Below, piece after piece: positions 6,270-35,861 of a stretch of 35,861 nucleotides of DNA (within the stretch, counting starts at the first letter, position 1; every line of letters begins with the position of its first letter). The position numbers were made by a program, and so were the translations under genes. The notes under the pieces were generated by a model, which saw nothing but the letters and a program-made list of their open reading frames with translations, was not told the origin of the DNA and made no database searches. Source of the DNA: Cohaesibacter marisflavi (lineage in GTDB: Bacteria > Pseudomonadota > Alphaproteobacteria > Rhizobiales > Cohaesibacteraceae); assembly GCF_900115225.1 (NCBI RefSeq), contig NZ_FOVR01000023.1, forward strand, positions 1 to 35,861, read 5' to 3'.

Positions 6270-6479
6270 ATGGCAAATCACCCTATCAAAGATTGGCGCT
6301 TATCGCGCGGGCTAACACAAACCGAACTGGGAGATGCGATTGGCGTCACCAAAGCAGCGGTAAGTCGATACGAACAGGGCATCGCCCCCAGTTGGGCGGT
6401 GCAGGTTGAAATCTTTGAATTCACCGAAGGCGCTGTCACTCCCAATGACTGGCTCCCTAGAAGGGAGATAGCCTTATGA
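6270..6479 (+). CDS. Cro-like HTH regulator
   Basis: A 69-residue protein made of little more than one helix-turn-helix: IKDWRLSRGLTQTELGDAIGVTKAAVSRYEQG at residues 5-36. It is first in the rightward early operon, divergent from the repressor, with the main operator just upstream. That is the position of Cro in lambdoid switches. There is no clear ribosome site before the ATG at 6270, and the leader is probably very short. Its stop overlaps the next gene's start (ATGA). Confidence 0.82.
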   Translation: MANHPIKDWRLSRGLTQTELGDAIGVTKAAVSRYEQGIAPSWAVQVEIFEFTEGAVTPNDWLPRREIAL

Positions 6480-6898
6480 AGTATCCGCAATTCATCAAGC
6501 GCAGATCCACGCCCGAAGCCACGCTGCTTTGTGCGCATGACGCAATCCTCCGGGATCGGCTAGCGGACTTCCTCAGGGACCAACACCCCAGCAATACGGC
6601 CAAGGAAGTGGGGCGCAAGGCACATCTGCCGCCACGCACAGTGGAACGCTGGCTGGCTGGCCTTTCTGCTCCACGTCTGGAGCATTTCATTAAGCTGCTT
6701 AAGGCCTATGGGCCTGCGCTTTTGAAAGCGGCCATGGATGACAACAGCGTCAGCGCCATGAAGCAAAGCGGCTTTGACTGGGTCGATCGTCTTCGGACGG
6801 CTGAAGACCAGGCTAAGGCAGAGGCGGACCTCGACCGCGTGGAAAAAGCACTCAAGGCATTGCGAGCTTCTCGGCCCAGTAACGGGCGGGAGGATTGA
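6476..6898 (+). CDS. HTH-containing early protein (possible CII-position regulator)
   Basis: A 140-residue protein with a predicted helix-turn-helix at about 41-61 (TAKEVGRKAHLPPRTVERWLAG) and a charged helical C-terminus (EDQAKAEADLDRVEKALKAL) that looks like a coiled coil. It starts on the cro stop codon (ATGA) and is followed closely by the next gene. Position directly after cro resembles that of CII-type activators, but there is no clear similarity to CII. It is likely DNA-binding; its target is unknown. Confidence 0.7.
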   Translation: MKYPQFIKRRSTPEATLLCAHDAILRDRLADFLRDQHPSNTAKEVGRKAHLPPRTVERWLAGLSAPRLEHFIKLLKAYGPALLKAAMDDNSVSAMKQSGFDWVDRLRTAEDQAKAEADLDRVEKALKALRASRPSNGRED

Positions 6899-6900
6899 TC

Positions 6901-7545
6901 ATGCGGCGCGGGGGACGAAGCGGGGAGAGAGCCGCAAATATTCGGAAAATCAAAAAGACCGGTCTTTTGTCAACCGAGAGTGCACGGGGTGCGCCTTTTG
7001 ATGTGTTTGTGCACAGGATGGCTAAAATTTCTTCAGCCTGTGCGGAAAATGGCTTTTCGATCGCGTCGATCTGCGAGTTGGCCGGTGTGCGAGATAGACA
7101 ATGGCGGCGCTGGCAATCTGGGCAAGCTATGCCGCGACCATCGAGCCTCAGGCGGATGGAACGGGCAATCGCTAGAAGAATTCAAGAACAAAAGCGCAAT
7201 GAACTTTATGAAGGGGCGCTTTCAACCACCGCATACCGCATGTTGCTTGCCAGACTGGCCGATGCTGCAGGGCTGAATGTTGCTCTGGCGCTTGCCGACA
7301 ATCCGCAAGATCAGGACAAACAGAGCCCGACGCGCGCGGCCGCAAGCCTTTGTCGCCAACGGGCGCTCTATCTCATCGTGACCGAACTCAATGTGCCGCT
7401 AGTTATGGCGGCCGGATTCGCTGGAATTTCTAAACAAGCTGTTTCAAAGAGCCTTCGCCAGATCGAAGAGAGCAGGGACGATCCGGACGTGGATCATCTG
7501 CTCGATCAAATGGCGGGGCTCATTCATGACAAAACAGGAGTGTGA
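6901..7545 (+). CDS. Two-domain HTH protein with DnaA domain IV-like C-terminus
   Basis: A 214-residue protein. An N-terminal helix-turn-helix (about 52-78, [20 protein letters not shown]) is followed by a helical linker. The C-terminal segment, about 146-205, reads [19 protein letters not shown]...[20 protein letters not shown]. Its layout (RQ-A-YL...TEL..., then a reading helix, then R-IEE-RDDP) resembles the DNA-binding domain IV of DnaA as found in stand-alone form in alphaproteobacterial phages. ATG at 6901 follows GGGAGG at good spacing; a TTG at 6895 is less likely. No ATPase motif is present. It may be an origin-binding or regulatory protein. Confidence 0.7.
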
Positions 7546-8493: not shown

Positions 8494-8809
8494 AACATTC
8501 GAGCCATCATGGGCATTGGGCAAGTCTTTGCTTGGTATGAGACTGATTGTGTCGGAAGACGCAGTCGATGGATCAAAGATCATTGGCAGAAGGTTCAAAC
8601 CATCTCCTCATCGTTCCAAACGCATTCACAAAAAACTCTGCAAGAGCTTCGGCGGTGAGTTCATTTATGCGCCAGCTATCTACATGCATAGACCTTCCGA
8701 AACGATCTTCATCCATCCCACAATGGAGCGGGAACTGAAACGCGCCCTAGCAGAGCAGGCTGAACATAGCATCTTCGACATGATGAGAGTGGGGCGGGAA
8801 AATGGCTAG
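8486..8809 (+). CDS. Hypothetical basic early protein
   Basis: A 107-residue protein beginning MAKTFEPSWALG, with AGAGG upstream of the ATG at 8486. The frame is open further upstream, but that part overlaps the preceding gene out of frame. The middle is basic (RRFKPSPHRSKRIHKKLCK), suggesting nucleic-acid contact, and the end is helical and acidic. No family is recognised. It overlaps the primase start by 8 bases, so it is likely coupled to it. Confidence 0.65.
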   Translation: MAKTFEPSWALGKSLLGMRLIVSEDAVDGSKIIGRRFKPSPHRSKRIHKKLCKSFGGEFIYAPAIYMHRPSETIFIHPTMERELKRALAEQAEHSIFDMMRVGRENG

Positions 8810-9899
8810 TCGACTGCAAGAGGTCAAAGCTGCACTTCAAGATGACGTGATGCGGCTGGTTAAGGAGCTGGTTCCGGACGGCAAGGCTACCGGCAACAAT
8901 TACACAGCGAAAAGCCCGGTGCGCCATGATCGCCGGGCAGGGAGCTTTGTTGTCTGGATTGGCGGCAACGCCAAGGGCTGTTTCAAGGACTATGCGGATG
9001 ATGACGTCAAGGGCGACATCTTTGGTCTGATCTGCCTTTGCAAGGGCCTCGACAAGAAAGAGGCCTTGGCATGGGCGGAAGATTGGCTCGGATGGAAGAC
9101 CATGAGCAAGGCCGACAAGGCCAAGTTCATGCGGGACGTGAAAAAACGGGAGGCCCGCCAGAAAGAAGAAGATCTGGCGTTCCAGCGGCGGATGGTGGAC
9201 AGGGCACGGCGCACCTGGTCCACCACCGTGCCAATCCTCGGGACGGTGGGCGAAGAGTATTTCCGGTTTCGTGGCGTGCCGCTCGATCAGATCACAAACT
9301 GCAATGAATTCTGCCGGTTCATTCCCCAGTGCGAATATTGGTATGAGGCCGACTATGTCTATGAAGACGGGAAGCGGCGCAAGGTCAAGCCGGGGCGCAA
9401 GTTTCCCGCCATCGTTTCTGCCATGCGCGACATCGATGGGCAGTTGCAGTCGCTGCATTACACGTTTCTTGCACTGGATGGGCGTGGCAAAGCCCCAGTC
9501 GAAGACCCGAGCAAAGCAAAACTGATGTATCCGCGCACCACGGGAGCGGCCATTTGGCTAACCCGCGGCAAGGGCAATATGGGTGCAAAGACCATGGCTA
9601 AAAAGGGTCTGGTTTGCCCTGTGATCGTTGGGGAAGGCATCGAGGACGGATTGTCGGCCGCGCTGGCTGTGCCTGAGGCGCGTGTGCTGGCGGCGGGATC
9701 GCTGCCAAACCTGCTGCACCTGCCGCTCCATAAGTGTTTCGGCTCGGTACTGCTGCTCAAAGATAACGACTGGAACAAGCCTCAGGCGCAGGATCTATTC
9801 AATAGAGCTATGGATCGCATCAAGCGTCACGGCTTGCCGGTAGCGGCTGTCAGCTCATCTTCGGGCAAAGATTTCAATGATTTGTTGAGGGGGGAATGA
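8802..9899 (+). CDS. Toprim-domain primase-like protein
   Basis: A 365-residue protein. The first 95 residues resemble the N-terminal binding domain of phage primases (YTAKSPVRHDRRAGSFVVW...GCFKDYADDDVKGDIFGLI) but lack the usual four-cysteine zinc site. A central region (150-230) is followed by a Toprim fold: E278 in VIVGEGIEDGLSAALA and the acidic pair D321/D323 in LLLKDNDW. This suggests synthesis of RNA primers for replication. It sits in the early operon upstream of the P-loop ATPase, which is probably its helicase partner. The opposite-strand gene at 9902-10594 has been placed directly after its stop codon. Confidence 0.85.
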   Translation: MASRLQEVKAALQDDVMRLVKELVPDGKATGNNYTAKSPVRHDRRAGSFVVWIGGNAKGCFKDYADDDVKGDIFGLICLCKGLDKKEALAWAEDWLGWKTMSKADKAKFMRDVKKREARQKEEDLAFQRRMVDRARRTWSTTVPILGTVGEEYFRFRGVPLDQITNCNEFCRFIPQCEYWYEADYVYEDGKRRKVKPGRKFPAIVSAMRDIDGQLQSLHYTFLALDGRGKAPVEDPSKAKLMYPRTTGAAIWLTRGKGNMGAKTMAKKGLVCPVIVGEGIEDGLSAALAVPEARVLAAGSLPNLLHLPLHKCFGSVLLLKDNDWNKPQAQDLFNRAMDRIKRHGLPVAAVSSSSGKDFNDLLRGE

Positions 9900-9901
9900 T
9901 G

Positions 9902-10594
9902 CTAATCAAAGGAATCCGTACCAAATTTATCAAGTGCGATATTATATCTTTTTTCCCAAGCTTCTGTCTTCATCAGAATGTCTGCCCCTTGGCAATCAGA
10001 CACCAATTCAAAGTGTCCGGGGCCATCACTGCGCGATTCCACACCCGCTTTCTTAGCGCTCCAGTCCATACCGCTTTGACTTTGAAGGTCAGCGATGAAA
10101 GTGCCGATTTCATCGCTAATTTTATAAACATCTACAGCAACGCTCCGGTGCAAAGAAGACATTGCATAACTAACAAGGCGAAGATCAATCCTAACCTTTT
10201 GCAGTTGCATTGTAAGCGTCAGGACCTCTTCTTTCGAGAACTCCGGACCATCTTCAGTGAAGCTACCTGGTGGAGCAGCTATTTCGAAATTTCTAAATTC
10301 GCTAGCAGATTTGATTACCTCCGACATTCGCAAAAGCTTATTGTCTCTAGAATCAGAGCGAAGCAACTCCAGCTGCCTGTAAACTGCTTGTCCAGCCCAG
10401 ATTACTGCAAACACAGAAACAGCACTGATGATGATACCGACTATTTCTATGGGGGCACCATAAGAAACAGTACTCTTAAGAGCTGGCATCAGGACCAAAA
10501 AGCCAAAAAAAATCACGCCCATTACGAACGAACCAATAAGAGCTCCTCCAAACGCGGCCCAAAGCAAATCAGCTTTTCTGTTTCCATTTTTCAT
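9902..10594 (-). CDS. Two-TM membrane protein on the opposite strand (moron candidate)
   Basis: A 230-residue protein beginning MKNGNRKADLLW. It has two membrane segments (about 9-36 and 47-68: IGSFVMGVIFFGFLVLM and IVGIIISAVSVFAVIWAG) and a cytoplasmic helical domain of about 160 residues. The frame is open upstream to 10705, but that part overlaps the next early gene, so I chose ATG at 10594. It converges on the primase gene and breaks an otherwise unidirectional operon. Its DNA is visibly more A+T-rich than its neighbours. These are the marks of a moron: an autonomously expressed, recently acquired gene, often for superinfection exclusion or host modification. No family recognised. Confidence 0.72.
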   Translation of the reverse strand: MKNGNRKADLLWAAFGGALIGSFVMGVIFFGFLVLMPALKSTVSYGAPIEIVGIIISAVSVFAVIWAGQAVYRQLELLRSDSRDNKLLRMSEVIKSASEFRNFEIAAPPGSFTEDGPEFSKEEVLTLTMQLQKVRIDLRLVSYAMSSLHRSVAVDVYKISDEIGTFIADLQSQSGMDWSAKKAGVESRSDGPGHFELVSDCQGADILMKTEAWEKRYNIALDKFGTDSFD

Positions 10595-10644
10595 ACAACC
10601 AAGCCTAGCAGCTTCCTTCCTGCTCGCCAATTGGGGAGGGCAGC

Positions 10645-10950
10645 ATGATGCCCAGAAACCTGTTTCAGGAAGCGCTTGCCAGCGCCAAGGCCAGAGGCTG
10701 TTCACCCGACAAATGGGTGGTGAATAGCCATGTCGTGACCGCTTTGGTCGAGAACCGGCGCAATTCCTCCGTCAATTACATCGATGTCGTCAACATCAAG
10801 GAGCAGACCATGGAGATCCTCGGTTTGCCGGTGCGGATGAGCACGAAAATAGATCCGATGGTGGTGATGCTGGCAGAAGGCAAACGCGGCCTTTCCAGCT
10901 TCACCATTCCCCTTGTACTCGATCTGACCGAACTCGGCCCCATCGGGTGA
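10645..10950 (+). CDS. Hypothetical early protein
   Basis: A 101-residue protein with GGGGAGGG upstream of its ATG (two ATGs in a row at 10645 and 10648). It appears to be a soluble alpha/beta protein, with FQEALASAKARGCSPDKWVV followed by strands such as SSVNYIDVVNI and VVMLAEG. It resumes the rightward operon after the inverted gene. Not recognised. Confidence 0.65.
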   Translation: MMPRNLFQEALASAKARGCSPDKWVVNSHVVTALVENRRNSSVNYIDVVNIKEQTMEILGLPVRMSTKIDPMVVMLAEGKRGLSSFTIPLVLDLTELGPIG

Positions 10951-11717: not shown

Positions 11718-13541
11718 GTGGTAACATCAGGCATCCAGCAGATCAGAGATACGGTTATGCCTGCCTTGCGGGAAGTGACGCGGGAACAGGAAAAGCGCAA
11801 GGAAGCTGCGCCTATTCCTCAGGGGCCGGACTATGTTCGCGGCGATGATTATCCGGGCGAGTGGAAACCGGACGCGCTCGGACTGCCGCCAGATTGTCCG
11901 GTACAACCCCTTGGCATGGATGGAGATACGATTTTCCTCATCGATGCCATGGGACAGCTGGCCGCTGTCAGCCCTTCCAGCTTCGGGCAGGCCTTTATCC
12001 AGCGTCTTTTCGGTCGCCATATCGGCTATGCCTATTGGGCTTGGCCTGCCTATAGCAAGGAAAATGGCATCACCGGCTTCAAGGCCGAGAAAGTGCGTGA
12101 AAGCTTTTACACGGCCGCATCCATCAAGGGTCTTTGGAACGCTGTCGAGAAGGTAAGGGGCCTTGGTGCCTGGCGCGGCGATGATGGCGAGCTGATCGTT
12201 CATTGCGGCGACTGCCTCTGGATCGATGGCAAGCGGATCGATACGGGCGAAGAGGGGCGCTATTTCTACCCCAAACGCCCCGCCATTCATAGCCCATGGG
12301 AAGAGGCGATCGGGTTTGAAGACAACCCGGCGCGCAACTTATTCAAGATTTTGAAGACATGGAACTGGAAACGGCCGGATGTGGATCCACTGCTGTTTCT
12401 GGGGTGGCTTGGAACCGGCATGTTGGGTGGTGCGCTGGAATGGCGCCCCTCGATGTTCCTGATCGGTGACAAAGCCGTAGGTAAATCAACCCTGCAGGGG
12501 ATCGTTAGCCAGGTGCTGGGGGATGGGCTGGTTTCTTCGACGGACACCACCCCGGCCGGTATCTATCAACGCGTTGGTAATGGCTCTTTGCCAGTCGCCA
12601 TCGATGAGCTGGAAGCCGAAGCGGACAACAGGCGCGTTACCGGCGTTGTCAAACTGGCGCGCCTTGCCGCCAGTGGCGGGCTGATGCTGCGCGGTGGACA
12701 GGATCACACAGGCGTTGAATTTCAGGCGCGATCGACATTTCTCTTTTCAGCTATCAACCCGCCGCCTCTGGCTCCTCAAGATCTCTCACGTATGGCTGTT
12801 ATCTCGATCGACCGGCTGGACCCTACCAAGGTAACGGATCCACCGAAGCTGGATCCGCATACTGGCCAGAAGATCATGCGCCGGCTTATCGATCAGTGGC
12901 ATCTTTATGAAGGAACATGGCAGGCCTACCGCGAGACCTTGCGCGATGGCGGTCATGACAGTCGAGGGCAGGACACCTACGGCACCTTTCTTGCCTGCGC
13001 ACATCTGATCCTTGGCGACGAAGGCATGGAAGAGGCTGGCTACAGAGCTGATGATCTATCCGGTTGGGCTGAAACGCTCGATGCCCGGAACCTTACGGAG
13101 AAAGAAGCGGCCGAAGAAAACTGGAAAGAATGCCTTGAGTATCTGCTTACCAGTCGTGTCGATGCCTGGCGTGGCGGCATGCAACATACGATCGGCGCTC
13201 TAATCGAAGGATACCTCGATAGCGGTAATAGCTACCTCGATGTCGCCAAGACGCGGGAGATGTTGGCGCAGGTGGATCTGGGCCTGCTGCCCAAGGGCCA
13301 AAACAAGATCGACAAGAATTGCGACTTCCTTGCGATCCCGAACAAGGGCCCGAACCTTACGAGCCTGTTTGAGGGCATGCCTTGGTCCAATCGTGTGTGG
13401 TCCTATGCCCTGCGTCAGGGGCCGATGGACATCGTGGAGTATCGCAAACAATTCAACAAGGTAAAGATCGGCGGCGTCTCACGACGCGTCACGCTGGTCA
13501 ACCTGACGGCATTTGCCGAATATGCAGAGAGGGAGGGGTAA
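11718..13541 (+). CDS. P-loop replicative ATPase (VapE/D5-like helicase)
   Basis: A 607-residue protein with a Walker A motif GDKAVGKST at 250-258 and a Walker B-like VAIDELE at 293-299. A later conserved segment, STFLFSAINPPPL, could hold sensor residues; this pattern resembles the VapE/D5 superfamily of SF3-like phage and plasmid helicases. The first 200 residues form a separate domain of unknown fold; the last 150 probably form a winged-helix region. The start is a GTG at 11718 with AAGGAA upstream. It would unwind DNA at the phage origin, working with the Toprim protein. The nearby repeat cluster at 13994-14267 is its likely site of action, by inference. Confidence 0.8.
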   Translation: MVTSGIQQIRDTVMPALREVTREQEKRKEAAPIPQGPDYVRGDDYPGEWKPDALGLPPDCPVQPLGMDGDTIFLIDAMGQLAAVSPSSFGQAFIQRLFGRHIGYAYWAWPAYSKENGITGFKAEKVRESFYTAASIKGLWNAVEKVRGLGAWRGDDGELIVHCGDCLWIDGKRIDTGEEGRYFYPKRPAIHSPWEEAIGFEDNPARNLFKILKTWNWKRPDVDPLLFLGWLGTGMLGGALEWRPSMFLIGDKAVGKSTLQGIVSQVLGDGLVSSTDTTPAGIYQRVGNGSLPVAIDELEAEADNRRVTGVVKLARLAASGGLMLRGGQDHTGVEFQARSTFLFSAINPPPLAPQDLSRMAVISIDRLDPTKVTDPPKLDPHTGQKIMRRLIDQWHLYEGTWQAYRETLRDGGHDSRGQDTYGTFLACAHLILGDEGMEEAGYRADDLSGWAETLDARNLTEKEAAEENWKECLEYLLTSRVDAWRGGMQHTIGALIEGYLDSGNSYLDVAKTREMLAQVDLGLLPKGQNKIDKNCDFLAIPNKGPNLTSLFEGMPWSNRVWSYALRQGPMDIVEYRKQFNKVKIGGVSRRVTLVNLTAFAEYAEREG

Positions 13542-13993: not shown

Positions 13994-14267
13994 GTGTCCC
14001 TGTTCATGACGGGTCCGGGGACACCATAGGGGACACTGGGGACACTTCAAATTCTCTAGTGTCCCCAACAATTCAACGCAAAATCAGAGGCTTAAGGCGT
14101 AGGTTCCACTGGGGACAACTAAACAAGCCTCACGTCACACGCGCACGCGCGCGTATAGAGATATAGGTGTCCCTAGTGGAACCAGTGGAACTATATAGAT
14201 AAGTATATGGTTTTATTGAGTTTTTACGGGGACACTTGCGGGGACACCAAGGAAGTCAGGTGTCCCC
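13994..14267. repeat. GGGGACAC repeat cluster: candidate replication origin
   Basis: Ten copies of GGGGACAC or its complement lie within 274 bp. Seven are exact: 14017, 14029, 14038, 14059 (reverse), 14228, 14240 and 14260 (reverse). Three match at 7 of 8: 13994 (reverse), 14111 and 14167 (reverse). A second 9-mer, AGTGGAACY, occurs at 14175 and 14184 in tandem and at 14102 in reverse. Between them lie a strictly alternating pyrimidine-purine run (14136-14157) and an A+T-rich stretch (about 14190-14226). Iterated sites beside an A+T-rich segment, next to replication genes, fit a replication origin. A packaging site or a late-promoter control region are alternatives. Confidence 0.65.
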
Positions 14268-14333: not shown

Positions 14334-14963
14334 ATGACAGACGATACCGAACAAATGGATCTGCTCCAAACCAGCGATAATGAGGGGTGCGAGGGCACGC
14401 CGACTGCGGTTTTTCCTGCGGCTCGGGCGGAAAAACGGGGGCGAGGCAGGCCAAAAGGAGCGGTGAACAAGAAGACCGAGGCCATTGGCAAGCTCTACCA
14501 GACCAAAGGTTACCGCGATCCGCTGTTGTTCCAGGGCGAGATCATGTCCAGTCACCCTCTGGATCTGCACGAATGGTTCCTGGCAATGGAAGGCAGAGCC
14601 AGAGGGTTGACCATCGAGAAGGCCCGAGATGCATGGAAGGCTGGGACGCTGCCTGGCGTGCCTTCGATCGCGGAGATCGTGGCTTTGCAAACCAAGGTGG
14701 CGGACAGCCTGACGCCATACCTTTACGGCAAGAAGCCTCAGCAGAGTGAGGAAGAGAACGAGCGCCTGCCAATGCTGTTCATTGACCTGGGCGATGATCA
14801 CGAGATCGATGCGGATCCGGCCAGTGAAGGCATGCTTTCGATCGGGCAACGGATCGAAGATGAAAGTGAACAAAATCAATCACTTAGAAAATCGGCGACA
14901 GAAGGGTCTCACGACAACAGGTCTCATGAAGCAGTCAAACCATTGAAAGACAAGGGGGAATAG
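14334..14963 (+). CDS. Terminase small subunit candidate (AT-hook protein)
   Basis: A 209-residue protein just upstream of the large terminase. Residues 33-50 carry an AT-hook-like basic motif (EKRGRGRPKGAVNKKTEA), which would bind the minor groove of A+T-rich DNA. A helical core follows (about 65-150, EIVALQTKVADSLTPYLYGKKP), then an acidic, disordered C-terminus. Position, size and DNA-binding character fit a small terminase that recognises the packaging site. Sequence alone does not prove this, because small terminases diverge widely. The ATG at 14334 has no strong ribosome site. Confidence 0.6.
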   Translation: MTDDTEQMDLLQTSDNEGCEGTPTAVFPAARAEKRGRGRPKGAVNKKTEAIGKLYQTKGYRDPLLFQGEIMSSHPLDLHEWFLAMEGRARGLTIEKARDAWKAGTLPGVPSIAEIVALQTKVADSLTPYLYGKKPQQSEEENERLPMLFIDLGDDHEIDADPASEGMLSIGQRIEDESEQNQSLRKSATEGSHDNRSHEAVKPLKDKGE

Positions 14964-15277
14964 GCGTTGCGACCACTGATAGGATATCAGCAGGAGCCCC
15001 CCCTCAAATCAGGGGGACCGGCATGTTTTGAGCGAAGAGGTTCTGGAAAATTTCGCCCACCCTTGGCTCTGCTCGCTCGCCCTCTGTTGAACGGCAAAAG
15101 GGCAGAAATCCGCGAGGCCTTCCCCGAAACGCCCCCAGCCCCCCCATATAGGGGTGTGCGACCACACACCGATCAGGATTTTGATCGGAACAGATCCCAA
15201 AAATCGCGTTCCCTGATCCGTTGGCCTAGGGGTCGGGGGAATGGCGCTTCACTTTGGGCAAAACTGGGGGTAGGGGA
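14964..15277. other. Non-coding gap with hairpins between terminase genes (packaging-site candidate)
   Basis: A 314-bp stretch with no convincing gene. It contains several dyads: CCCCCT-N6-AGGGGG near 15000-15017, GGTGTG-N6-CACACC near 15153-15170, and CCGATCA (15169-15175) paired with TGATCGG (15182-15188). A C-rich run (GCCCCCAGCCCCCCC) lies near 15131-15145. Spaces next to terminase genes often hold cos or pac sites, so this is a candidate; nothing in the sequence fixes a cut position. Confidence 0.4.
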
Positions 15278-16852
15278 ATGAACTATCAATTTCCGAGGGA
15301 AGACTTGACGGGTCTTATCGCTCCTGACGATACCGATATTCGGGCGCTTGTGCAAGCCTATGAGCAAGATGAAGACTTCGATCCCTATCATTTCAAACCG
15401 GCCGGGGATATCTCTCGCTCCTTCATTTCTGGTAAGGAAATGAGCCGTTTCATCATGGGGCCGGTAGGAGGTGGCAAAACAGTCTCTTGCGTCTTTGCGC
15501 GCGTTGTCGCGGCTACCCTGATGCCTCCCTGCAAGGATGGATGGATCCGAGATCGCTTTGTTGTGGTCAGAACCTCTTTCCGCGATGCGGAACGCACGGT
15601 TTTGAATTCCTGGAAACAGTGGTTTCCACGCACCTATCCCGGTTCCAGTTGGTCCGGTGGTAATGATCGTCCAGCAACGCATGTTTTGCGCTGGCGTTTG
15701 CCAAATGGGCTGAAGGTGGAAGCGGAAACGATCTTTCTGGGGATTGGTGATCAGTCGATCGAAGATATCCTGCGTGGTTTGGAGATCTCCGGCGGTTGGA
15801 TGAATGAAGCCGACACGCTCGCTTCGAATGTGCTGCGCTATATTGAGCAGCGCACGGGACGCTATCCCAAAAAGGAAGATCTGGCCGATCCTGACGCCAA
15901 ACGCATGCGGACCGTCCTTGGCGACTATAACGCACCGGATATGGACAACTGGACCTATGAGCAACTGGTTGAGAACCCTGCACCTCATCGCCGGCTTTAT
16001 CGCCAGCCTTCCGGCCGCTCTCCCAACGCAGAGAACCTGTCGCGTTTGGAACCTGATTATTACCAGAAGATCATCGAAGCCGAACCCGACTGGTATGTGC
16101 GCCGCTTCGTTGACAATCAGTATGGCTATAGTCGCGAAGGCCTGCCGGTCTATCGATCCTTTGATCAGGATCGCCATATCGCAGCCAAAAAGCTTGATCC
16201 AGTCGAAGGGTTGCCGCTGTTGATCGGCCTCGATGCTGCCCTGCATCCTGCTGCCATCTTCGGGCAACCTATGCCGAATGGCCAGATTCGCATTCTCGAT
16301 GAGCTGGTGCCAGGTGCGGGTGTTGGCGCGGCGCGTTTCGCGGAAATGATCCTCGATCTGCTCGATCGTCGTTATCAAATGATCGCCGACATTCGCGCCT
16401 GGGCGGATCCTGCAAGCCAGTATGGTGCGGATAGAGAGGGTGGTGAACAGGCCTGGCTCGATACCATGCAAGTGGAATTGAAAATGCCGATCCTTATTCC
16501 CGCTAACGGATCAAACGAATTGGGGCTTCGGCTCGGAGCTGTCGAGAAAGAACTCACGCACTTCATCGACGGGGAAACCCCGCGGCTTCTCGTTTCCCCT
16601 CATTGCAAGCTTTTGAACCGCGGCTTCATGTCCGGCTATCGCTTCAAAAAGCTTTCCGGAGGGTCAGAACAATTTGCCCTGCAGCCGGAAAAGAATGATT
16701 ATTCCCACCCCCATGATGGCTTGCAGTATCTGGTATTGGGCTATCGGGGACGCCCCTCGGTCGTTGGTCAAGACCGCCGCCAGCGGCAAGCGGCCGCCAG
16801 AAAGGCAAAAGGCGGAGCCAAACGAACATTTGATCCGCACAAATATGCCTGA
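15278..16852 (+). CDS. Terminase large subunit
   Basis: A 524-residue packaging motor that pumps DNA into the prohead and cuts it. ATPase domain: Walker A GPVGGGKT at 61-68, and a Walker B-like strand ending GGWMNEAD with E177. Nuclease domain (about 310-490): D319 in LLIGLDAA, D377 in RAWADPAS, and D474 to D480 in DYSHPHDGLQY, consistent with the RNase H-type metal site of terminases. ATG at 15278 has GGTAGGGGA just before it; an in-frame ATG eight codons upstream lacks this. The length is usual for T7-like or P22-like terminases. The gene opens the late structural block. Confidence 0.93.
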   Translation: MNYQFPREDLTGLIAPDDTDIRALVQAYEQDEDFDPYHFKPAGDISRSFISGKEMSRFIMGPVGGGKTVSCVFARVVAATLMPPCKDGWIRDRFVVVRTSFRDAERTVLNSWKQWFPRTYPGSSWSGGNDRPATHVLRWRLPNGLKVEAETIFLGIGDQSIEDILRGLEISGGWMNEADTLASNVLRYIEQRTGRYPKKEDLADPDAKRMRTVLGDYNAPDMDNWTYEQLVENPAPHRRLYRQPSGRSPNAENLSRLEPDYYQKIIEAEPDWYVRRFVDNQYGYSREGLPVYRSFDQDRHIAAKKLDPVEGLPLLIGLDAALHPAAIFGQPMPNGQIRILDELVPGAGVGAARFAEMILDLLDRRYQMIADIRAWADPASQYGADREGGEQAWLDTMQVELKMPILIPANGSNELGLRLGAVEKELTHFIDGETPRLLVSPHCKLLNRGFMSGYRFKKLSGGSEQFALQPEKNDYSHPHDGLQYLVLGYRGRPSVVGQDRRQRQAAARKAKGGAKRTFDPHKYA

Positions 16853-24971: not shown

Positions 24972-27461
24972 ATGGCGAACCGTCAGGCCCGGGGATTGGG
25001 CAAACTTGTAGAATTGAATACGCAAGGTCAGGTATCAACCAAGCCCGGTGCGGCGGTTGATACCAATGCCGGCATTTGGTTTGCAGCCTCGAAAAGCCTG
25101 CGTCAGGCAGGGCGGACCCTTAGCGCCATGGCCGATCGGGCGATGAAACGCCAACAGGCTGCGGATCTTAAAGCGGCACAAACATCAGGCGAGCAGGCTG
25201 GATACGCGGCTGATCTGGGGACCGGATCGGCCAGCAGTTATTTCAACGGGGATATGAAAGCAGGTATCGAGGCCGCTGCCAGTGCCCTGAAGATTGATCC
25301 GATCGATCTGGCTACTGTCATTTCATATGAAACGGGTGGAACGTTCGACCCATCAAAAAAGGGGCCAACCACAAAATGGGGCACCCATCGCGGTCTTATA
25401 CAGTTTGGAGAACCGCAAGCCAAGCAATATGGCATTGATTGGAACAATCCACTTGCCAGCCAACTGGGAGAAAATGGCGCAATTGTACGTTTTCTGCGCG
25501 ATGGTGGTGTCAAACCTGGCATGGGGCTGCTCGATATCTATTCCGTAATCAATGCCGGTGCCGTTGGCAGATACAATGCCTCGGATGAAGCTGCAGGCGG
25601 CGCACCTGGCACGGTGCGCGATAAAGTCCAAAACCAGATGGACGGTCATCGGGCCAAAGCCGAACAGTTGTTTTCCGGGGCGTATCCTGCAGGCACCGGA
25701 CGCCCTTCGGCCACCGGGCCTGCACTTGCCTTGCGTCGTGGTGACACCCCCATGGGGGAAGCTTATCTGGCATCTCAAAACAGGGCGCTAACACGGCGCT
25801 TGCCTCTGGAAGTGACCCAGCAGCTTGACGCCCTCTATGAAGAACACAAGGACGACCCGGCAGCATTGACGCAAGCTTTTGATGAAGCGGAAAACGGGGT
25901 TCTGACGCAGCTTGGCAAGTTGTCCAACAATGATCCGGAAATGATCTTGCTTGGCCAGCAAACCTTCGCCCAGAAACGGCGCGTTTATGAAAAGTCTGCC
26001 AGAGCGGCAGAAGATGCCCGCGTGCGCGATGGTGAACGATCGGACTATGACGACACCCTGAAGGCCTCCCGATCCAGCTTGCAACGACAAGCCTATCTGA
26101 CGGGCAATGATGTGGAGGCCGGTGCAGATCTGGAAGTTTCGATCAATGAAAGCCTAGCTTCCATTTCCGACGCTCTTGATGCTGGTCTTATTTCTCCGGA
26201 AGTGGCAAAGCGCGACAGGAAAGCCGTACTCGATACCGTAACGCTCGCGCGTGTGGATGGTGTTTTTGACAGCCTGCCAGATGTAGGCAGTAAAGAAGCC
26301 TTTATTGAAGGATTGAAGGATAGCTGGACCAAAGAGGAAGAGCTCTTCAAGGATCTCTCTTTGGAACAGGTACAAGCACTTGAACGCAAATATGCCGGAG
26401 CTATCACTCAGGAAAAACGACAGACCACCGCCACCAGCAAATTGGAAGTACAGAAGATGCGTTCCATGGTGGATGATGATCTGGCGTCCATTCGGGGGAC
26501 TGGTGTCGGTTTGTCGATCGATGGGGAAGAGCTGACCTTTGACCAGGTCAAGGCAACCCTCGGAGAAGGTACCGCGCAGGAATGGCAGCAAAAGCGTCAG
26601 CTGCAGGCCGGAATTTTCAACGCAACGACTGGCCTCGACCTGATGCCTGCAACAGAGATGGTTGGTCATTTGGCGGCTCTTGAGCCGAAAGCGGGAGCTT
26701 CTGGCTACACGGATCAGGCAACAATACACGACACTGCACAGAAAGAAGCCCAAAAGATCCTCAAGCGGCGCAAGGAAGATCCGGCCTTGGCGGTCGATGT
26801 CGCATTTGACGATCTCAAGCCCATTCGCGAGCAGGCCTATCAAGGGGATCTTGTTGCGATGGAAGAACTGATCAAGGGCAGGCTGGACGCACAGGAAGCG
26901 CTCGGGATCTCGGACTATGCCAAGGCCCCGTTGACGAATTCGGAATTGCAAGTCATCGCCCAGCCGGTGGCCGGTGCGGTGGATCGCCAGACGTGGGATC
27001 AGCTATTTGCTAAGATCGATGAAAGCTATGGACCTTATGCGGATGAGGTCATGACACAGATCCTTCATTGGAAGGGACTGCATAAGGAAGCCGCGACGGT
27101 CGCAACATCTATGCTCAGGCAAACCAAACTTGGGGAACGACAAAGCCGCCTCGATGCTAAATCCTCGGATCAGAAAATGGGTGCGCTCGAAACAGAAACG
27201 GCGATGGATGGGGACTTCGATACGGTCAAATGGAAGGCCTCGCCAAACAACAGTCAGATTAATCATCTGCTCGCCAATCCGGATCTAGCCGATCAGTTTG
27301 ACGACAAATTCGGATCTGGTGCTTCCGCTTTCTATATCAAGGCACAAGAGCGAAGCAAACAGCAAACACAGGCTTACGTCGATGGCCTCGCCTCTGATGG
27401 CGTATCGATCAATGAGGATGGGTCTGAAAATTACGATCCGGCAAAGGAAAATGCACAATGA
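24972..27461 (+). CDS. Internal virion protein with lysozyme-like domain
   Basis: An 829-residue protein. Around residues 95-220 it has a lytic-transglycosylase-like region: E120 in VISYETGGTFDP, then THRGLIQFGEPQAKQYG, LGENGAIVRFL and LDIYSVINAGA. This agrees with the SLT/goose-lysozyme pattern (a catalytic Glu near S-ET-G, a GLIQF/GLMQ motif and N-G). Such a domain cuts peptidoglycan to let the DNA tunnel through the cell wall. The remaining 600 residues are mostly helical, as in T7 gp15. In T7 the lysozyme domain belongs to gp16, so here it has moved to the smaller protein. The stop overlaps the next ATG (ATGA). Confidence 0.82.
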   Translation: MANRQARGLGKLVELNTQGQVSTKPGAAVDTNAGIWFAASKSLRQAGRTLSAMADRAMKRQQAADLKAAQTSGEQAGYAADLGTGSASSYFNGDMKAGIEAAASALKIDPIDLATVISYETGGTFDPSKKGPTTKWGTHRGLIQFGEPQAKQYGIDWNNPLASQLGENGAIVRFLRDGGVKPGMGLLDIYSVINAGAVGRYNASDEAAGGAPGTVRDKVQNQMDGHRAKAEQLFSGAYPAGTGRPSATGPALALRRGDTPMGEAYLASQNRALTRRLPLEVTQQLDALYEEHKDDPAALTQAFDEAENGVLTQLGKLSNNDPEMILLGQQTFAQKRRVYEKSARAAEDARVRDGERSDYDDTLKASRSSLQRQAYLTGNDVEAGADLEVSINESLASISDALDAGLISPEVAKRDRKAVLDTVTLARVDGVFDSLPDVGSKEAFIEGLKDSWTKEEELFKDLSLEQVQALERKYAGAITQEKRQTTATSKLEVQKMRSMVDDDLASIRGTGVGLSIDGEELTFDQVKATLGEGTAQEWQQKRQLQAGIFNATTGLDLMPATEMVGHLAALEPKAGASGYTDQATIHDTAQKEAQKILKRRKEDPALAVDVAFDDLKPIREQAYQGDLVAMEELIKGRLDAQEALGISDYAKAPLTNSELQVIAQPVAGAVDRQTWDQLFAKIDESYGPYADEVMTQILHWKGLHKEAATVATSMLRQTKLGERQSRLDAKSSDQKMGALETETAMDGDFDTVKWKASPNNSQINHLLANPDLADQFDDKFGSGASAFYIKAQERSKQQTQAYVDGLASDGVSINEDGSENYDPAKENAQ

Positions 27462-30400
27462 GTGGGCAAGCTGAGGCAACTATTCCCAATCCCTTTGATC
27501 AATTCGATGCGGAAGGATCGGATCCCATCCTGATGGAAGCCCCTCGACCGGGGCTGTCTGAACGATTTAAGATCAATATGGAAGCAGCAACGCGACAAGG
27601 GACCGTTGTCGGTGCCTTGCGCGATGTCAGCCGTCCAGAAAACAGACAACGCTTTGACAGCCGTTATGAAAGCTTTCCGGAATGGGATACACCAATAGAA
27701 GGTCTCGCCGCGCTGACCGGGCAGGTCGCGGGTACGATCGTGGATGCCGAACGCGGCACGCCCCATCTTGAAAACCTGATCCCGGTTGGTATCGGTGAAA
27801 AGGCATTGGCCATGTCTGGCCGTGGCCTTTCTGCTCTTCGTGCCCGTCTCTTTGCGGGTGCCGTGGATGCTGCTGCAGTCAATGCTGTAACGGACCCCGT
27901 TATCCAGGGCATTGAAATGGGAGCCGGTTTCCGCGAGGAATTCGACCCGATCCAGTTCGCAAGCTCTGTTGGTCTGGGCGCTGTTGCTGGTGGTGTCATG
28001 GGACCGATTACTCATCGGGCGAGTTCTCCGCAAAGCCATATCGCAGGGGAAGTGGCCGACTGGGCAAATGATCGCGCACCCGACATGCCAGCTCGTCAAG
28101 CCGACATGCTGGACACAGCCGTCCGATCAGAACCGATGGACACCCCGGCAATGAATCCAGATTTGCCAGACGGCAAAAAACTGGACTTCGGCAACACTGA
28201 GGCTGCCACTAAAGCGCAAAGCGCTGTGACGGCTTCTGAGGTCGTTTCGGAACCTGTATCCCTTGGTGATCGTCTGCAGCCAAGACCAGCTAAGCCGGAA
28301 GTGCAGGCCATGGCACGGCAGACCGATGCTGAACCGCTCTGGAAAGACAATGGGACATGGAAGGCAACCGATCCGGACATTGTCGAGGTTGGTCAATTTG
28401 GGCCGATCGTGGATATCGACGCGCATAATCGCCAATGGTCGAGTGTTGCCGATCGGCTCAAACAGATGGAAGCCGGGGAAGCGCGCGGAGCACTGGACCA
28501 TCCTGATCTCGGCGATATCGATGTTTTCTGGGGCGACTATGACCTTAAGACGGACACGGGCGCTGGTCTCAAAAAGATCTTTGAAAAGCATCCGGAAGTT
28601 TACGATGACCTGCCGGAAATTATTCGTTCGCTTGAAGTCGTTAGTAAATCAGATAACAGGGCCATTCTGAAAAGCGACAAATATAAAGCCGTTATTCGCT
28701 TTGATTATGATGGGAAGGAAAAGACCTGGTTGCTTTCGGCATATGAGCCGACTGATGATTGGCGGGCCAGAGGTACTACCGGGCGCTCTGACACTTATCA
28801 TGCGGACGCCTCCTCCGCTGCGCCAACCGGTAATAGTATAGATCCAAAATCCAAGAATTTCAATGAAAGCCAACGTGCCGAAGGTAGTACGGAGCGCTCC
28901 GACAGTCGCCAGATGGACGCGCACAGCTCCTCCACCTCGTCGGCCGATCAAGATATGCGACTTCCTCAAGGGGAAAGCAAGGGAGATCCTGCTCTGCAAG
29001 CAGCGATCACCCGAGTGGATGCTGATGCCAACATGATCCAGGATCGACTGGGGGCAATGTCAGGCGAGATCCGGCGCAACACAGATGGCATCGAGCGGAC
29101 GGCCAGCAATGAAAATCACAAGGCTGTTGGTGTGCGCCTGGTCGATATCGCCAATCGCCTTTACGATCTGACGGGCGTTGCTGCTGTGAGGCGCGGCATC
29201 AAGAAACCGCTAGGGCAAAGCAAGGCCGGTGTTCTTGGCACGCACAACACACGGACCGGTGTAATCCGGATCAAGGATCCCAACGATATCGAAGTGATTG
29301 CCCATGAAGTGGGGCATCATATTGATCAGAAACTGGGAAAAGACTTCTCAGATCTGATGGCGATTTATAGCCGCGAACTGGAACCAATGGCCCCAGTTGG
29401 CTATTCTCCGGACTTATGGTTGACCGAAGGTTTTGCGGAATTCTTCCGGAATTTTCTGATGAACCCCAATTATGCGGCCAAACATGCGCCAACCTTCAAC
29501 CGTGCCTTTACCGACTTTTTGAAGAGCAGGAAGCCGGAATGGCTCAAGGGCTTTGTCGAATTGCAGGATCTTTATTATTCCTGGCGCACCATGCCGTCCG
29601 GCAACGCGGTTTCCTCTTCGGTCGTGACCAGCAAGATCGATGGAGCAATAGGGCAAACGATCGAAGAGGTCAAAAAGTCCGGGATCGGGCAGACGATCGG
29701 CGATAAATTGCACAATGCCTATACCAATTTCATGGATGCCAAGCACCCGATCCAGCAGGCTGTCACCGAACTGATAAAGGTTTATTCGGAGAATACGGGC
29801 AAGCAGCTGGATCTAGCTGTCAAGGATGACCCTTACAAACTTGCTCGCATGATCAATGGCGCGCAAAGCGCCGGTCACATGGACCTGATGTATGGCGTGC
29901 ATGGCTATCATCAGCTGGAACCACAAGGGCCGGCCTTGCGCGATGCCATCATCTATGCCCATGGCGGTGGCAATGTGCTTTCAAAGCATGATCCGGTGAT
30001 CACTCAGGATTTCGGCACCTATCTCTGGTCTCGTCGCGCCCTTGGCGAATGGTATCGTTATGAAGCGGGCGACATTCCGAACACGCCAGACAAATTCACC
30101 AAAGGGGATCATGAAGTCGTCATTCGAGAAATGGAAGCCAAATATCCGCATTTCCAGCAGGCGGCTGAAATGGTCTATGGCTGGAACAAGCAGCTCTGGA
30201 AGAAAAAGCTCGATGCCGGGCTCATCAGCAAAGAGCAATATCGCGAAGGGTTGCAGATCCGCGACTATGTGCCGGGGCTGAGAAAGCAGGACTATCCAGG
30301 CAACACCAAGACTGAAGGGAAGGGAGCCCGCACCGGCAAACAGAACCAGGTCAATCAATTTCGTGGCTCCAACCTCGATGTGATCAATCCGCTCGAAAGC

Positions 30401-32752
30401 CTGATGATGGATGCCTATGAAACGTCTGTTGCGATCGCCCATAATGACATGATCCGATCCTTGAAGCGGCTCGGCCGGATGGCTGGCCATGGATCCGGAG
30501 CCATTGTCGAAGAGATCCCCGCACGCGAAATGAAGGCCCTCATTGTGGATCCAATTGAAGCGGTGGAAGCGGCGGCAAAACAGCGGGGTTTTTCTAAGGT
30601 CGACTTCTCTATCGTGCGCGATGCCTTGCAAGAGACCATTGGAAATGAAAAGGCCAATCTGTTTCGCCCGGAAGTTATCAAGGAAGGAGGTCAGCCGATC
30701 GTATTCTTCCGAGAAGGCGGAACGCTGAAGGCCTTGCGTTTGGCGGATGGTGAACTCGGGCAACAGCTCTATCGAAGCTTTACCGCAATGAACCATGTCG
30801 AGCGCACCATGTTGCTTGATATCCTCGCTGGATCTGCCAGCATGTTGCGCACCGGCATTACAGCAGCGCCGGAATTCATTGCCGCTAACATCATTCGCGA
30901 CCAGGCCATGGCAGCGATTTTCTATGGCCACCCCTTCAAACGCCTGAAAGCGACCTTTGATGGTGGTATGGATGAATTCTTCAGTCGGGAAGCAGCCCGT
31001 CACTATAACGCCATGGGTGGCATCATGGGTGGCGAAAATGTTGCCTCCCTCAGGGATGGTGCTTTAAGTCGCGATCTCAAGGCTTTGGAGAAAAAGGGTT
31101 ACATCACTTCGAAGATGGCTAACCCGATCACACATCCCTATCAATTTGCCAAAGGGCTTGCCTCCTTGACCGAGGTGTCCGAAACAGCCACCCGCCTCGG
31201 TCTCTTCCGCACCTTCTTTGAAGAGGGGCGCATGCGTGGCCTCGATGAATTCGAAGCAGCAACCGAGGCTGCCTGGCTATCCCGCGATCATCTCGACTTT
31301 GACCGGCGTGGTCTGCATATGATGGCGCTTTCGCGCATTGTTCCCTTCCTTAATGCCAGCTTACAAGGGCTCGACAAGGCCTCCCGCCTGATGATCACAC
31401 CATTGGCAAAGAAATATTTCGGCAAGGTGCTAACTGCTGAAGAGGAAAGGGCCATCCCTCAGGCAACAAAGGCATGGGCCCGACTATCAGCCTTGACTGT
31501 TGCTGGCATGGGGCTTCATGCCCTCATGAGCCAGTATGATGATTATCACGAGATCTCGGAAACCACGCGCGCCACGCACTGGATGATCAAAACCGGCAAT
31601 CGCTGGACTGCCATCCCCAAGCCCTTTGAACTGGCAATCATGCTCAACATCGCCGAAGCGGCCTATGATGGGGTGATCAATCAAGATCCAACAGCAGCAG
31701 AACGCTATATGGACAGCCTTTTTGAAGTCTTGCTTCCGCCCAATATCATGGAAAGCAATCCGCTGGTAAAAACCTATTTCGAGGTCAAAAGCAACAAGGA
31801 CTTTTTCACCGGTGCCGATGTTGTGCCCGAGCAGCTGCTCGGCTTAGAGCCGCGATTGCAATATACCGCTTCAACGTCCGAACTCTCCAAACAGATCGGC
31901 GACGTGCTTGGCTGGTCTCCTGCCTTGACGGACAAGATGATTACGAATTTCACGGGCGGTCTCGGGCGATCGGCTTTGTCAATCTACGATGCCTTTGGCA
32001 GCAACAAGCCCGGCCAATCAGCCGATGACATGGCCATTCTGCGCCGGTTCATCAAATCGGCATCGCGCGGATCCCGATCAACGCGGGAATTTTGGGCTCT
32101 GGTTGCCCCCAGTACGGGAGAATTCGAGGGGACGGTCAAAAGCTATCAGGCCATGCTCGATGCCGGGCAAACTGTCGAAGCTGACGACTATCTGGGAACA
32201 CTCGGCGAAGAACAGCGGGTTTATCTGACGTCCCGCTTCATGCAAGGCAATGCTGCCCAGGCAAAGAAAATGCACCCGCTCGATCGGGCCAGACGTGCCG
32301 TTCGGGCCATTTCTCGCCTTCGTAAGGATCTAGCTGATGATGAAGTTATAGGGGCAGATGGTCCTTTGAGCTCCATTCCGCGTAGTGATCGCGGGGCGAT
32401 GGTCGATATTCTTGAAAGCCTCGCTGTCAAGGAAGCACGCAATGCACTGGTACTCCTTGATCAGCCTGGATGGCAGCATCGAGGCCTGATGGATGTAGAA
32501 GGGCATTACCGCGAATTGGAAGCACTCAACCCGAAAATTCTCAAGGTGCTTGCGGATCGCTACGCTACTGGCGGCGTCGTGCCCTTTGAAACCGTGCAGA
32601 AAAGCTGGCCGGATTATCGCGCACGCTTGCTTGCAGATGGCTCTGACGCCCCGATGGCGGACTTTGTTGTCATGGCCAAACATGAGCGGGAACTCAACGG
32701 TGACAAGATCAAACGTCCGCCCAAAGCACTGGTTCCGGGGCTTGCGAACTAA
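27458..32752 (+). CDS. Giant polyvalent internal virion (ejection) protein
   Basis: A 1764-residue protein, the longest in the window, in the place of T7 gp16 (1318 aa). Domains seen: (1) about 305-433, a segment with DIDVFWGDYDLKTD, then GLKKIFEKHPEVYDDL and KAVIRFDYDGKEKTWLLSAYE. It resembles the phage Barnase-EndoU-ColicinE5/D-RelE-like nuclease (PBECR) domains. (2) About 600-670, an HEXXH metallopeptidase (IAHEVGHHID with H616, E617, H620, and TEGFAEFF with E657/E661). (3) About 1080-1500, similar to the C-terminal LPD38 region of large polyvalent phage proteins (ILAGSASMLRTGITAAPEFI, then WTAIPKPFELAIM). A Ser-rich repeat linker separates 1 and 2. It is probably ejected into the host. 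Enzyme activities are inferred from motifs. Confidence 0.85.
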   Translation: MSGQAEATIPNPFDQFDAEGSDPILMEAPRPGLSERFKINMEAATRQGTVVGALRDVSRPENRQRFDSRYESFPEWDTPIEGLAALTGQVAGTIVDAERGTPHLENLIPVGIGEKALAMSGRGLSALRARLFAGAVDAAAVNAVTDPVIQGIEMGAGFREEFDPIQFASSVGLGAVAGGVMGPITHRASSPQSHIAGEVADWANDRAPDMPARQADMLDTAVRSEPMDTPAMNPDLPDGKKLDFGNTEAATKAQSAVTASEVVSEPVSLGDRLQPRPAKPEVQAMARQTDAEPLWKDNGTWKATDPDIVEVGQFGPIVDIDAHNRQWSSVADRLKQMEAGEARGALDHPDLGDIDVFWGDYDLKTDTGAGLKKIFEKHPEVYDDLPEIIRSLEVVSKSDNRAILKSDKYKAVIRFDYDGKEKTWLLSAYEPTDDWRARGTTGRSDTYHADASSAAPTGNSIDPKSKNFNESQRAEGSTERSDSRQMDAHSSSTSSADQDMRLPQGESKGDPALQAAITRVDADANMIQDRLGAMSGEIRRNTDGIERTASNENHKAVGVRLVDIANRLYDLTGVAAVRRGIKKPLGQSKAGVLGTHNTRTGVIRIKDPNDIEVIAHEVGHHIDQKLGKDFSDLMAIYSRELEPMAPVGYSPDLWLTEGFAEFFRNFLMNPNYAAKHAPTFNRAFTDFLKSRKPEWLKGFVELQDLYYSWRTMPSGNAVSSSVVTSKIDGAIGQTIEEVKKSGIGQTIGDKLHNAYTNFMDAKHPIQQAVTELIKVYSENTGKQLDLAVKDDPYKLARMINGAQSAGHMDLMYGVHGYHQLEPQGPALRDAIIYAHGGGNVLSKHDPVITQDFGTYLWSRRALGEWYRYEAGDIPNTPDKFTKGDHEVVIREMEAKYPHFQQAAEMVYGWNKQLWKKKLDAGLISKEQYREGLQIRDYVPGLRKQDYPGNTKTEGKGARTGKQNQVNQFRGSNLDVINPLESLMMDAYETSVAIAHNDMIRSLKRLGRMAGHGSGAIVEEIPAREMKALIVDPIEAVEAAAKQRGFSKVDFSIVRDALQETIGNEKANLFRPEVIKEGGQPIVFFREGGTLKALRLADGELGQQLYRSFTAMNHVERTMLLDILAGSASMLRTGITAAPEFIAANIIRDQAMAAIFYGHPFKRLKATFDGGMDEFFSREAARHYNAMGGIMGGENVASLRDGALSRDLKALEKKGYITSKMANPITHPYQFAKGLASLTEVSETATRLGLFRTFFEEGRMRGLDEFEAATEAAWLSRDHLDFDRRGLHMMALSRIVPFLNASLQGLDKASRLMITPLAKKYFGKVLTAEEERAIPQATKAWARLSALTVAGMGLHALMSQYDDYHEISETTRATHWMIKTGNRWTAIPKPFELAIMLNIAEAAYDGVINQDPTAAERYMDSLFEVLLPPNIMESNPLVKTYFEVKSNKDFFTGADVVPEQLLGLEPRLQYTASTSELSKQIGDVLGWSPALTDKMITNFTGGLGRSALSIYDAFGSNKPGQSADDMAILRRFIKSASRGSRSTREFWALVAPSTGEFEGTVKSYQAMLDAGQTVEADDYLGTLGEEQRVYLTSRFMQGNAAQAKKMHPLDRARRAVRAISRLRKDLADDEVIGADGPLSSIPRSDRGAMVDILESLAVKEARNALVLLDQPGWQHRGLMDVEGHYRELEALNPKILKVLADRYATGGVVPFETVQKSWPDYRARLLADGSDAPMADFVVMAKHERELNGDKIKRPPKALVPGLAN

Positions 32753-35614: not shown

Positions 35615-35861
35615 TGAATAAGGTGGATCTGATTATCTGTTCAGGCAGCCAGTTTTGTTGTTCCATTCATCGTGTTGTAGGCCTCATTCGGGGTCAGAAT
35701 GCCATGGGAAGAATGGGGGCGTAGTTCGTTATAGTAGGAGATCCATTTTCCAATGCCAGCCCTTGCTTCTGATCCCGTCTCAAATGCATTGAGATAGATG
35801 CACTCGTATTTGATAGATCGCCAGAGCCGTTCGATCATCCGGTTATCGACCCAGCGCCCAC
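35615..35861 (-). mobile_element. IS3-family insertion sequence, 3' end (continues past the window)
   Basis: The element is recognised by its transposase gene. The likely terminus begins near 35615 with TGAATAAGGTGG; IS3-family ends start with TG. The other end and any target duplication lie outside the window, so the exact border is uncertain. Confidence 0.65.
35641..35861 (-). CDS. IS3-family transposase OrfB, C-terminal part (partial)
   Basis: Read leftward from the right edge, the frame gives GRWVDNRMIERLWRSIKYE, the region with the last glutamate (the E of the DDE triad, in MIERLW) of the IS3-group integrase core. It continues with YLNAFETGSEAR, then WISYYNELRPHSSHG and TPNEAY, the standard C-terminal signature. 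It ends TKLAA at 35641. The first two catalytic aspartates lie beyond the edge. The protein would move the insertion sequence by copy-out-paste-in transposition together with OrfA. Confidence 0.92.
   Translation of the reverse strand, partial: GRWVDNRMIERLWRSIKYECIYLNAFETGSEARAGIGKWISYYNELRPHSSHGILTPNEAYNTMNGTTKLAA

Follow-up and report, generated by a model that had tools for sequence, protein, structure and literature searches.

What function is served by the cluster of short repeats at positions 13994-14267 of a contig from Cohaesibacter marisflavi? The stretch analyzed, referred to here as the window, is the complete contig NZ_FOVR01000023.1 (35,861 bases), and the repeats lie downstream of a gene for an AAA+ helicase (11718-13541). 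A first-pass annotation of the sequence had offered two readings, an iteron-type origin and a region controlling the late operon. Comparison with relatives strongly supports the former: the repeat array is very probably where replication of a temperate phage starts, and the phage's own helicase would bind it through a C-terminal winged helix. From the same comparison, the choice of repeat sequence appears to depend on a few residues of this helicase.

The repeat array and its two words

The 8-mer GGGGACAC occurred seven times in exact form in the window (0.73 expected), always within 14017-14267, and no other 8-mer in the window was as clustered; none of 100 shuffles reached seven copies. Three further copies with one mismatch (13994, 14111 and 14167) belong to the array. 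As a class, copies with at most one mismatch were not enriched, with 20 in the window (exact ones included) versus 23.4 expected, 10 of them within the 274 bases of the array. A second word, AGTGGAAC, was present three times in the array (14103 on the minus strand, 14175 and 14184) and once at 6640 (0.64 expected in the window). These counts bear out the first-pass annotation in that the array exceeds chance. Genome-wide counts (5.34 Mb) pointed the same way: the paired pattern GGGGACACN{1,30}GGGGACAC occurred six times, three in this array and three in an 83%-identical array on contig C26, and the reversed control pattern had 0 occurrences.

The C26 array (G000:C26:177327-177826; L002, L009, L013) belongs to a second prophage of the same genome and uses the same words, so that the two helicases may recognize each other's origin. 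A homologous array was found in 6 of 101 genomes, the source genome included. In one viral entry (L015/L204, IMGVR_UViG_2681812989_000001), the array is present and the helicase frame is broken by stops.

The repeats had been described as arranged around one A+T-rich stretch, which proved too simple. They form four blocks (Table 1), with two gaps of about 35 bases (42% and 20% GC) and, between these, a center of alternating purines and pyrimidines. At 22 bases, this run is the longest such alternation in the window (runner-up, 13). With the two words counted as one, the spacings between slots are 24, 12, 9, 20, 44, 9, 55, 9, 9, 44, 12 and 19. The first repeat lies 456 bp past the helicase gene.

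Nine related arrays, eight of them distinct (G006 and L012 are identical), were aligned in the same orientation. The slots are fixed across the alignment, and the words vary. At 14029, 14103, 14176 and 14260, some relatives carry GGGACAC/GTGTCCC and others GTTCCAC/GTGGAAC, with strand and position (within about 1 base) kept at all four slots. Counting both words as one, the strand pattern ---+--+++--+ recurred in each of the eight rows from Cohaesibacter, seven of them distinct, whose spacings agree from the first long gap on (43-44, 8-9, 51-55, 9, 8-9, 44, 12, 18-19). The words differ in the central triplet (GTG-TCC-C in GGGGACAC, GTG-GAA-C in AGTGGAAC); the TCC and GAA triplets are a candidate keto/amino equivalence of the two words.

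Because they exchange in the same slots and orientation, GGGGACAC and AGTGGAAC appear to be alternative spellings of a single site. An origin with two readers, the helicase for GGGGACAC and a second protein for AGTGGAAC, would explain why AGTGGAAC fills two mirror-image slots beside the gaps, as a special function would require, and why it recurs at 14103 in 8 of 9 rows (7 of 8 distinct) and at 14185 in 9 of 9 (8 of 8 distinct). We consider such an origin unlikely, given the exchange across whole slots at the four positions above. In addition, the mixture is reversed in L170, which has ten copies of GTGGAAC and one of GGGGACAC together with a helicase of the window-type wing (N580, K581, S588), and GGTTCCA serves as the main word of L187 and L212. 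Recognition by the helicase alone remains the preferred reading, and the same protein would then read both words in the same orientation.

Arrays downstream of related helicases

A helicase-alignment search of viral contigs provided 80 of 424 matched relatives, of which 69 were non-redundant; together with two phage records, these gave 71 loci. A protein search matched 931 relatives of the helicase, of which 120 were listed. An array was defined as at least 6 copies of one 7-mer no more than 4.5 kb downstream of the helicase. Arrays were found in 58 of the 71 loci, 0.1-3.8 kb downstream (nearest 80 bp); what would have been the 59th (L241) was a coding repeat and was dropped. In 61 loci, the sequence extended far enough to either side of the helicase for the two flanks to be compared; here the mean size of the best 7-mer cluster was 8.0 in the 4 kb downstream and 4.7 in the 4 kb upstream, the downstream cluster being higher in 50 loci, equal in 8 and lower in 3. 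At least 7 copies were reached downstream in 44/61 loci, upstream in 2/61 and in 0/183 shuffles. This comparison, together with the counts and shuffles of the window, led us to reject chance or a coding repeat as the source of the array.

The words of the array loci were grouped by us into 22 classes. The word differs by lineage and the layout is kept: outer blocks with a spacing of 11-12 bp, a gap of about 44 bp and inner blocks with a spacing of 8-9 bp are followed by their mirror image. Mirror pairs over the 58 loci numbered 147, compared with a null of 102.8 (standard deviation 3.5) and a maximum of 117 in 500 shuffles; taken singly, only 16 of the 58 loci were symmetric at P < 0.05. An alternating run of at least 12 was found in 34/39 centers, 1/78 gaps and 1.2% of shuffles. 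Mean GC content over these 39 loci was 46% and 39% in the gaps and 59% in the center.

The location of the arrays also bears on another idea, that the small terminase encoded at 14334-14963 binds them as a packaging site (pac or cos). Throughout the main family, the small-terminase-like gene, where detected, is found a few hundred bases downstream of the array, even with the helicase 2-4 kb off, and the 14334-14963 protein contains a GRGRPKG stretch that resembles an AT-hook. Distant helicases, however, are directly followed by arrays (regular in L276, L283 and L284, weaker in L277). Terminases of other families are encoded in three of these loci, of GpA type in L276 and L284 and of TerL_ATPase + Terminase_4 type in L277, at 1.4-3.3 kb past the helicase. 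The arrays thus accompany GpA-type and TerL_ATPase-type terminases as well as the window's own, and not one terminase family, which speaks against a packaging site. Furthermore, 15 of the 58 array loci had no detectable relative of the 14334 protein, whose columns carry at most 1.04 bits about base +2 of the word, versus 1.63 for helicase residue 588. From these loci, all found through the helicase, we regard a packaging site as highly improbable.

Three of the distant loci (L282, L283 and L284, in Cohaesibacter genomes G016, G014 and G006) represent another phage type with a distant helicase relative, the GpA terminase being shown for L284. Their array starts at the helicase stop codon and has GGTAAC or GGTTAC words.

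Three proteins had been put forward as candidate readers of the repeats. The analysis singled out the helicase and neither of the other two, with detectable relatives of the 6895/6901-7545 protein in 29 and of the 14334-14963 protein in 50 of the 71 helicase loci (window counted). This affects the other proposal of the first-pass annotation, a late-operon control region in which a phage regulator bound to the repeats would switch on the genes from 14334. The array does lie between early and late genes, but its word tracks the helicase, and the layout is kept ahead of different downstream genes. Relatives of possible regulators are sparse (29/71 loci for the 6895-7545 protein, 4/71 for the helix-turn-helix protein at 6476), so that neither is a general reader. 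No evidence specific to late-operon control emerged, although no promoter scan or covariation test was aimed at it, and we give it very little credence; a true origin may have a secondary regulatory role.

Clusters of GGGACAC also adjoin D5_N/DUF5906 primases (L120:6256, L128:1532) and AAA_25 primase-helicases (L095:5331, L057:5965, L136:3010). This association may be a selection effect, as large open reading frames (ORFs) were picked without a control scan. In IMG/VR, among the matches listed for paired GGGGACAC (at least 120), the helicase family was found in 0 of 30 clustered loci tested, many of which are fragments; the search had no shuffled-word control, and no enrichment is claimed.

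Covariation of helicase residues with the repeat word

Covariation was analyzed in 54 loci, comprising the 58 array loci minus L186 and L204 (early stop) and L222 and L229 (words not alike anchorable on GT). Words were anchored on GT, manually for these training loci and with a fixed rule for a held-out viral set; the orientation of palindromic words is uncertain. Columns were tested if they varied sufficiently and had a residue in 80% of rows, with 51-52 sequences for the primase and the large terminase (TerL) and 41 for the small terminase (TerS).

The strongest columns lay in the helicase C domain, namely S588 and R566 for base +2, and K581, S588 and N580 for base +1. Residue 588 shared 1.63 bits with base +2, while the highest columns of other proteins reached 1.15 (primase), 1.07 (TerL) and 1.04 (TerS). 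For base +1, K581 gave 1.02 bits, and the highest values elsewhere were 0.81 (primase), 0.80 (TerL) and 0.80 (TerS). Among the training loci, Q588 occurred with T (9/9), K588 with C (11/11), S588 with C (8/9), R588 with C (1/1) and E588 with G (3/3, two being sisters). Amino acid-base preferences usually pair Gln with A, Arg, Lys and Ser with G, and Glu with C; read on the opposite strand, the pairs of residue 588 were Gln-A, Lys/Arg/Ser-G and Glu-C.

Independent pairs were counted on a tree from which the C domain had been left out. None was against Q588/T (5/5, P = 0.0625), K/R/S588 with C (5.7/6, P = 0.031), K588/TC (3.5/5), E588/G (2/4) or K/R581/C (3.4/4). Of the control columns, T176 had 1.9 pairs for and 0.4 against of 4, and S363 had 0 for and 0.6 against of 5. 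Contrasts between sister loci on the tree fit this pattern (L169/L171; L178 versus L172/L225; L176 versus L173/L174).

The residue rules were then applied to held-out loci. For the viral set, 89 of 160 rows were entered, leaving out known loci and contigs; 28 were dropped for likeness to the first 80 and 18 for likeness to each other, giving 43 loci distinct at the DNA level, the words of which were called automatically. Of 26 loci with Q588, one had no array, and GTCT words were used in 24 of the other 25. K588 with R566 went with GTTCC-type words in 4/4 loci and K566 with A/G words in 3/4; in both cases a fifth locus had no array. The K566 miss carries K588 and the GTTCC-type word predicted by K588. 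R588 was found with a GTCCC-type word in L376 (nearest L201) and with five copies of GGGACAC in L347. The rules gave no prediction in 7 of the 43 loci.

In a whole-genome test of 24 loci, Q588 was right in 6/7, and 8 loci had no prediction. K566 was present in 8 loci and right in 6/6 testable ones, two of which are close relatives; L300 (98% identity) and L307 (without array) were set aside, and the arrays of L277, L289 and L311 were weak or tied, with 4-5 copies.

Related systems and the origin model

Structure models of the helicase (AF2 pLDDT 84 and 92.7) showed an AAA+ fold with a C-terminal winged helix, and Cch, PriRep1 and SaPIBov1 Rep were among the top matches in a fold comparison in which weak or missing matches exclude nothing. 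The protein resembles SCCmec Cch/Cch2 and SaPI PriRep1/Rep in fold, and its C domain resembles SaPIBov1 Rep and TcpK of the pCW3 relaxosome. It contains the sequence GDKAVGKST, presumably its Walker A motif. The helicase had no Pfam match up to E 0.1, which leaves it outside the described Rep families, and scored 14.3 bits with the P4-family model TIGR01613 (cut-off 108.7). Self-loading initiator helicases occur in satellites and pox-like viruses, and we infer that the window helicase is an initiator of this kind, similar to SaPI Rep, SCCmec Cch and P4-alpha.

As in SaPI and PICI, the array lies directly 3' of the initiator helicase gene, both in the window and in the 58 array loci. PICI origins, however, are described as two iteron sets around one AT-rich region, whereas the window has four blocks, two gaps and a CG/CA center. 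SaPI and PICI are satellites, unlike the window phage, which has an integrase and its own structural genes (head-tail adaptor phrog_332, large-terminase-like). In satellite phage P4, the type 1 repeats of ori match the left half of the array in strand pattern, with similar spacings (---, +, 43-bp gap, --). Placed on the window slots, 6/6 annotated ori repeats fit within 3 bp (P = 0.0165) and 5/6 within 2 bp (P = 0.12). P4 crr may resemble the right half, and the P4 type 1 word GGTGAACA is close to GGTGAAC, used by the relative L186 (L186:6856-7286). P4 differs in that ori and crr are about 4.7 kb apart, and in that primase and helicase are fused, whereas the window primase is separate. The proposed origin would be of a known P4/SaPI-like kind in a setting that is unfamiliar, and it combines the mirrored scaffold, the exchangeable words and the partly readable code. 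Within the portions available of the open-licence PMC literature (including PMC7581432, PMC7145576, PMC6092414, PMC8628076 and PMC6137059), neither the origin of this phage family nor such a recognition code was found described.

In the model that we propose, the iteron copies make up two half-origins facing each other. The winged helix would bind them mainly through its beta-wing (residues 580, 581 and 588), assisted by R566, located where the third helix ends. A helicase assembly may form on each half-origin, the gaps between outer and inner blocks would open, and two divergent forks could start, with the Toprim primase supplying the primers. The CG/CA center may contribute, for example as Z-DNA or a cruciform.

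A wider reading, on which our judgment is evenly balanced, is that these phage origins form a family whose address code is legible, in which residue 588 would match the base opposite iteron +2 by textbook preferences. Single substitutions and the rewriting of a dozen iterons would repeatedly have given related phages private origins on an unchanged mirrored scaffold, which would also underlie the split ori/crr of P4, and the two-word array of the window would be a natural intermediate between two addresses.

Several observations count against these readings. Taken alone, the window array had no significant mirror symmetry (4 pairs, P = 0.086, both words counted), and cumulative GC skew did not change direction at the array (lowest at 354, highest near the contig end), which neither supports nor refutes an origin. 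No array was found by our threshold in 13 of the 71 helicase loci, and in the main family its distance from the helicase ranges from 80 bp to 3.8 kb, yet it keeps close to the small-terminase-like gene. For base +1, two nearly binary TerL columns had z-scores of 10.2 and 10.0, compared with 10.0 for K581. T176 in the N-part of the helicase also scored high, and whole-domain distances, unlike the column-wise test, failed to single out the C domain. Independent pairs numbered only 2/5 for R566/K566 and 1/4 for N580, and residue 566 was unreliable, with K, A or G566 beside GTCT words in several held-out loci. Among the 25 held-out viral Q588 loci, 19 come from one clade (nearest training row L201 or L202), and L305, the single K588 case of the whole-genome test, is ambiguous. 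The rules fail or are silent in L297, L308 and L345, and in distant groups, where R566 is found with GTTAC-/GTTAG-type words (L274-L276, L282-L284). Lastly, P4 crr fits 4/5 repeats, which is not significant (P = 0.26-0.43).

Single examples reveal little about how self-loading initiator helicases choose their origins. Here, dozens of naturally occurring pairs of helicase and origin that share one scaffold and differ in their words make a recognition rule readable from sequence and testable with natural variants. Genomes G014 and G006 each have a window-type prophage alongside another whose words are GGTTAC or GGTAAC. With shared words in the window and C26 and differing words in G014 and G006, cross-talk and orthogonality of co-resident prophages become testable.

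The window corresponds to IMG/VR entry 2617270874_000001, with a Cohaesibacter-type host, and one relative is found in C. celericrescens. Its prophage gene set includes an integrase, primase, helicase, head-tail adaptor (phrog_332) and a weakly recognized large terminase. The ends of the window had no exact terminal overlap of 11-300 bases, and a circular contig was rejected on this ground.

Table 1. Coordinates of the array, its parts and the associated genes in the window.
Feature	Position	Strand	Remarks
Iteron array, proposed replication origin	13994-14267	both	13 slots, +---+--+++--+
Outer left block	13994-14066		GTGTCCC 13994, 14059 (+); GGGACAC 14018, 14030, 14039 (-)
Left gap, possible unwinding element	14067-14102		42% GC; 44 bp iteron to iteron
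Inner left block	14103-14119	-	GTTCCAC 14103 (second word); one-mismatch copy GGGACAAC 14112
Central alternating purine/pyrimidine run CACACGCGCACGCGCGCGTATA	14136-14157		at dyad, center ~14148
Inner right block	14167-14191	+	GTGTCCC 14167; GTGGAAC 14176, 14185
Right gap, possible unwinding element	14193-14227		20% GC
Outer right block	14228-14267		GGGGACAC 14228, 14240; GTGTCCCC 14260
Proposed initiator helicase, AAA+, 607 aa	11718-13541	+	closest folds SCCmec Cch, SaPI PriRep1/Rep
C-terminal winged-helix domain, residues 470-607, proposed iteron reader	13125-13538	+	fold, covariation
Covarying residues, helicase C domain	R566 13413-13415; N580 13455-13457; K581 13458-13460; S588 13479-13481		
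DNA primase, presumed helicase partner	8802-9899	+	DUF7146 + Toprim_3
Gene 3' of array, probably terminase-small-subunit-like (from position)	14334-14963	+	phrog_15261, function unknown; no Pfam match
Terminase large subunit (weak)	15254-16852	+	phrog_979, E 0.0017; no Pfam match

A minus-strand ORF with hydrophobic stretches (9902-10705) separates the primase and helicase genes, within the set of early genes that run rightward; Pfam comparison gave no convincing family for it. A 1764-aa protein encoded at 27458-32752 (+) has LPD38 and PBECR1 nuclease-like domains. At the right end of the contig, a transposase-like fragment (35641-35859, minus strand; rve_3, E 4e-16) raises the possibility that the assembly was interrupted by an insertion element.
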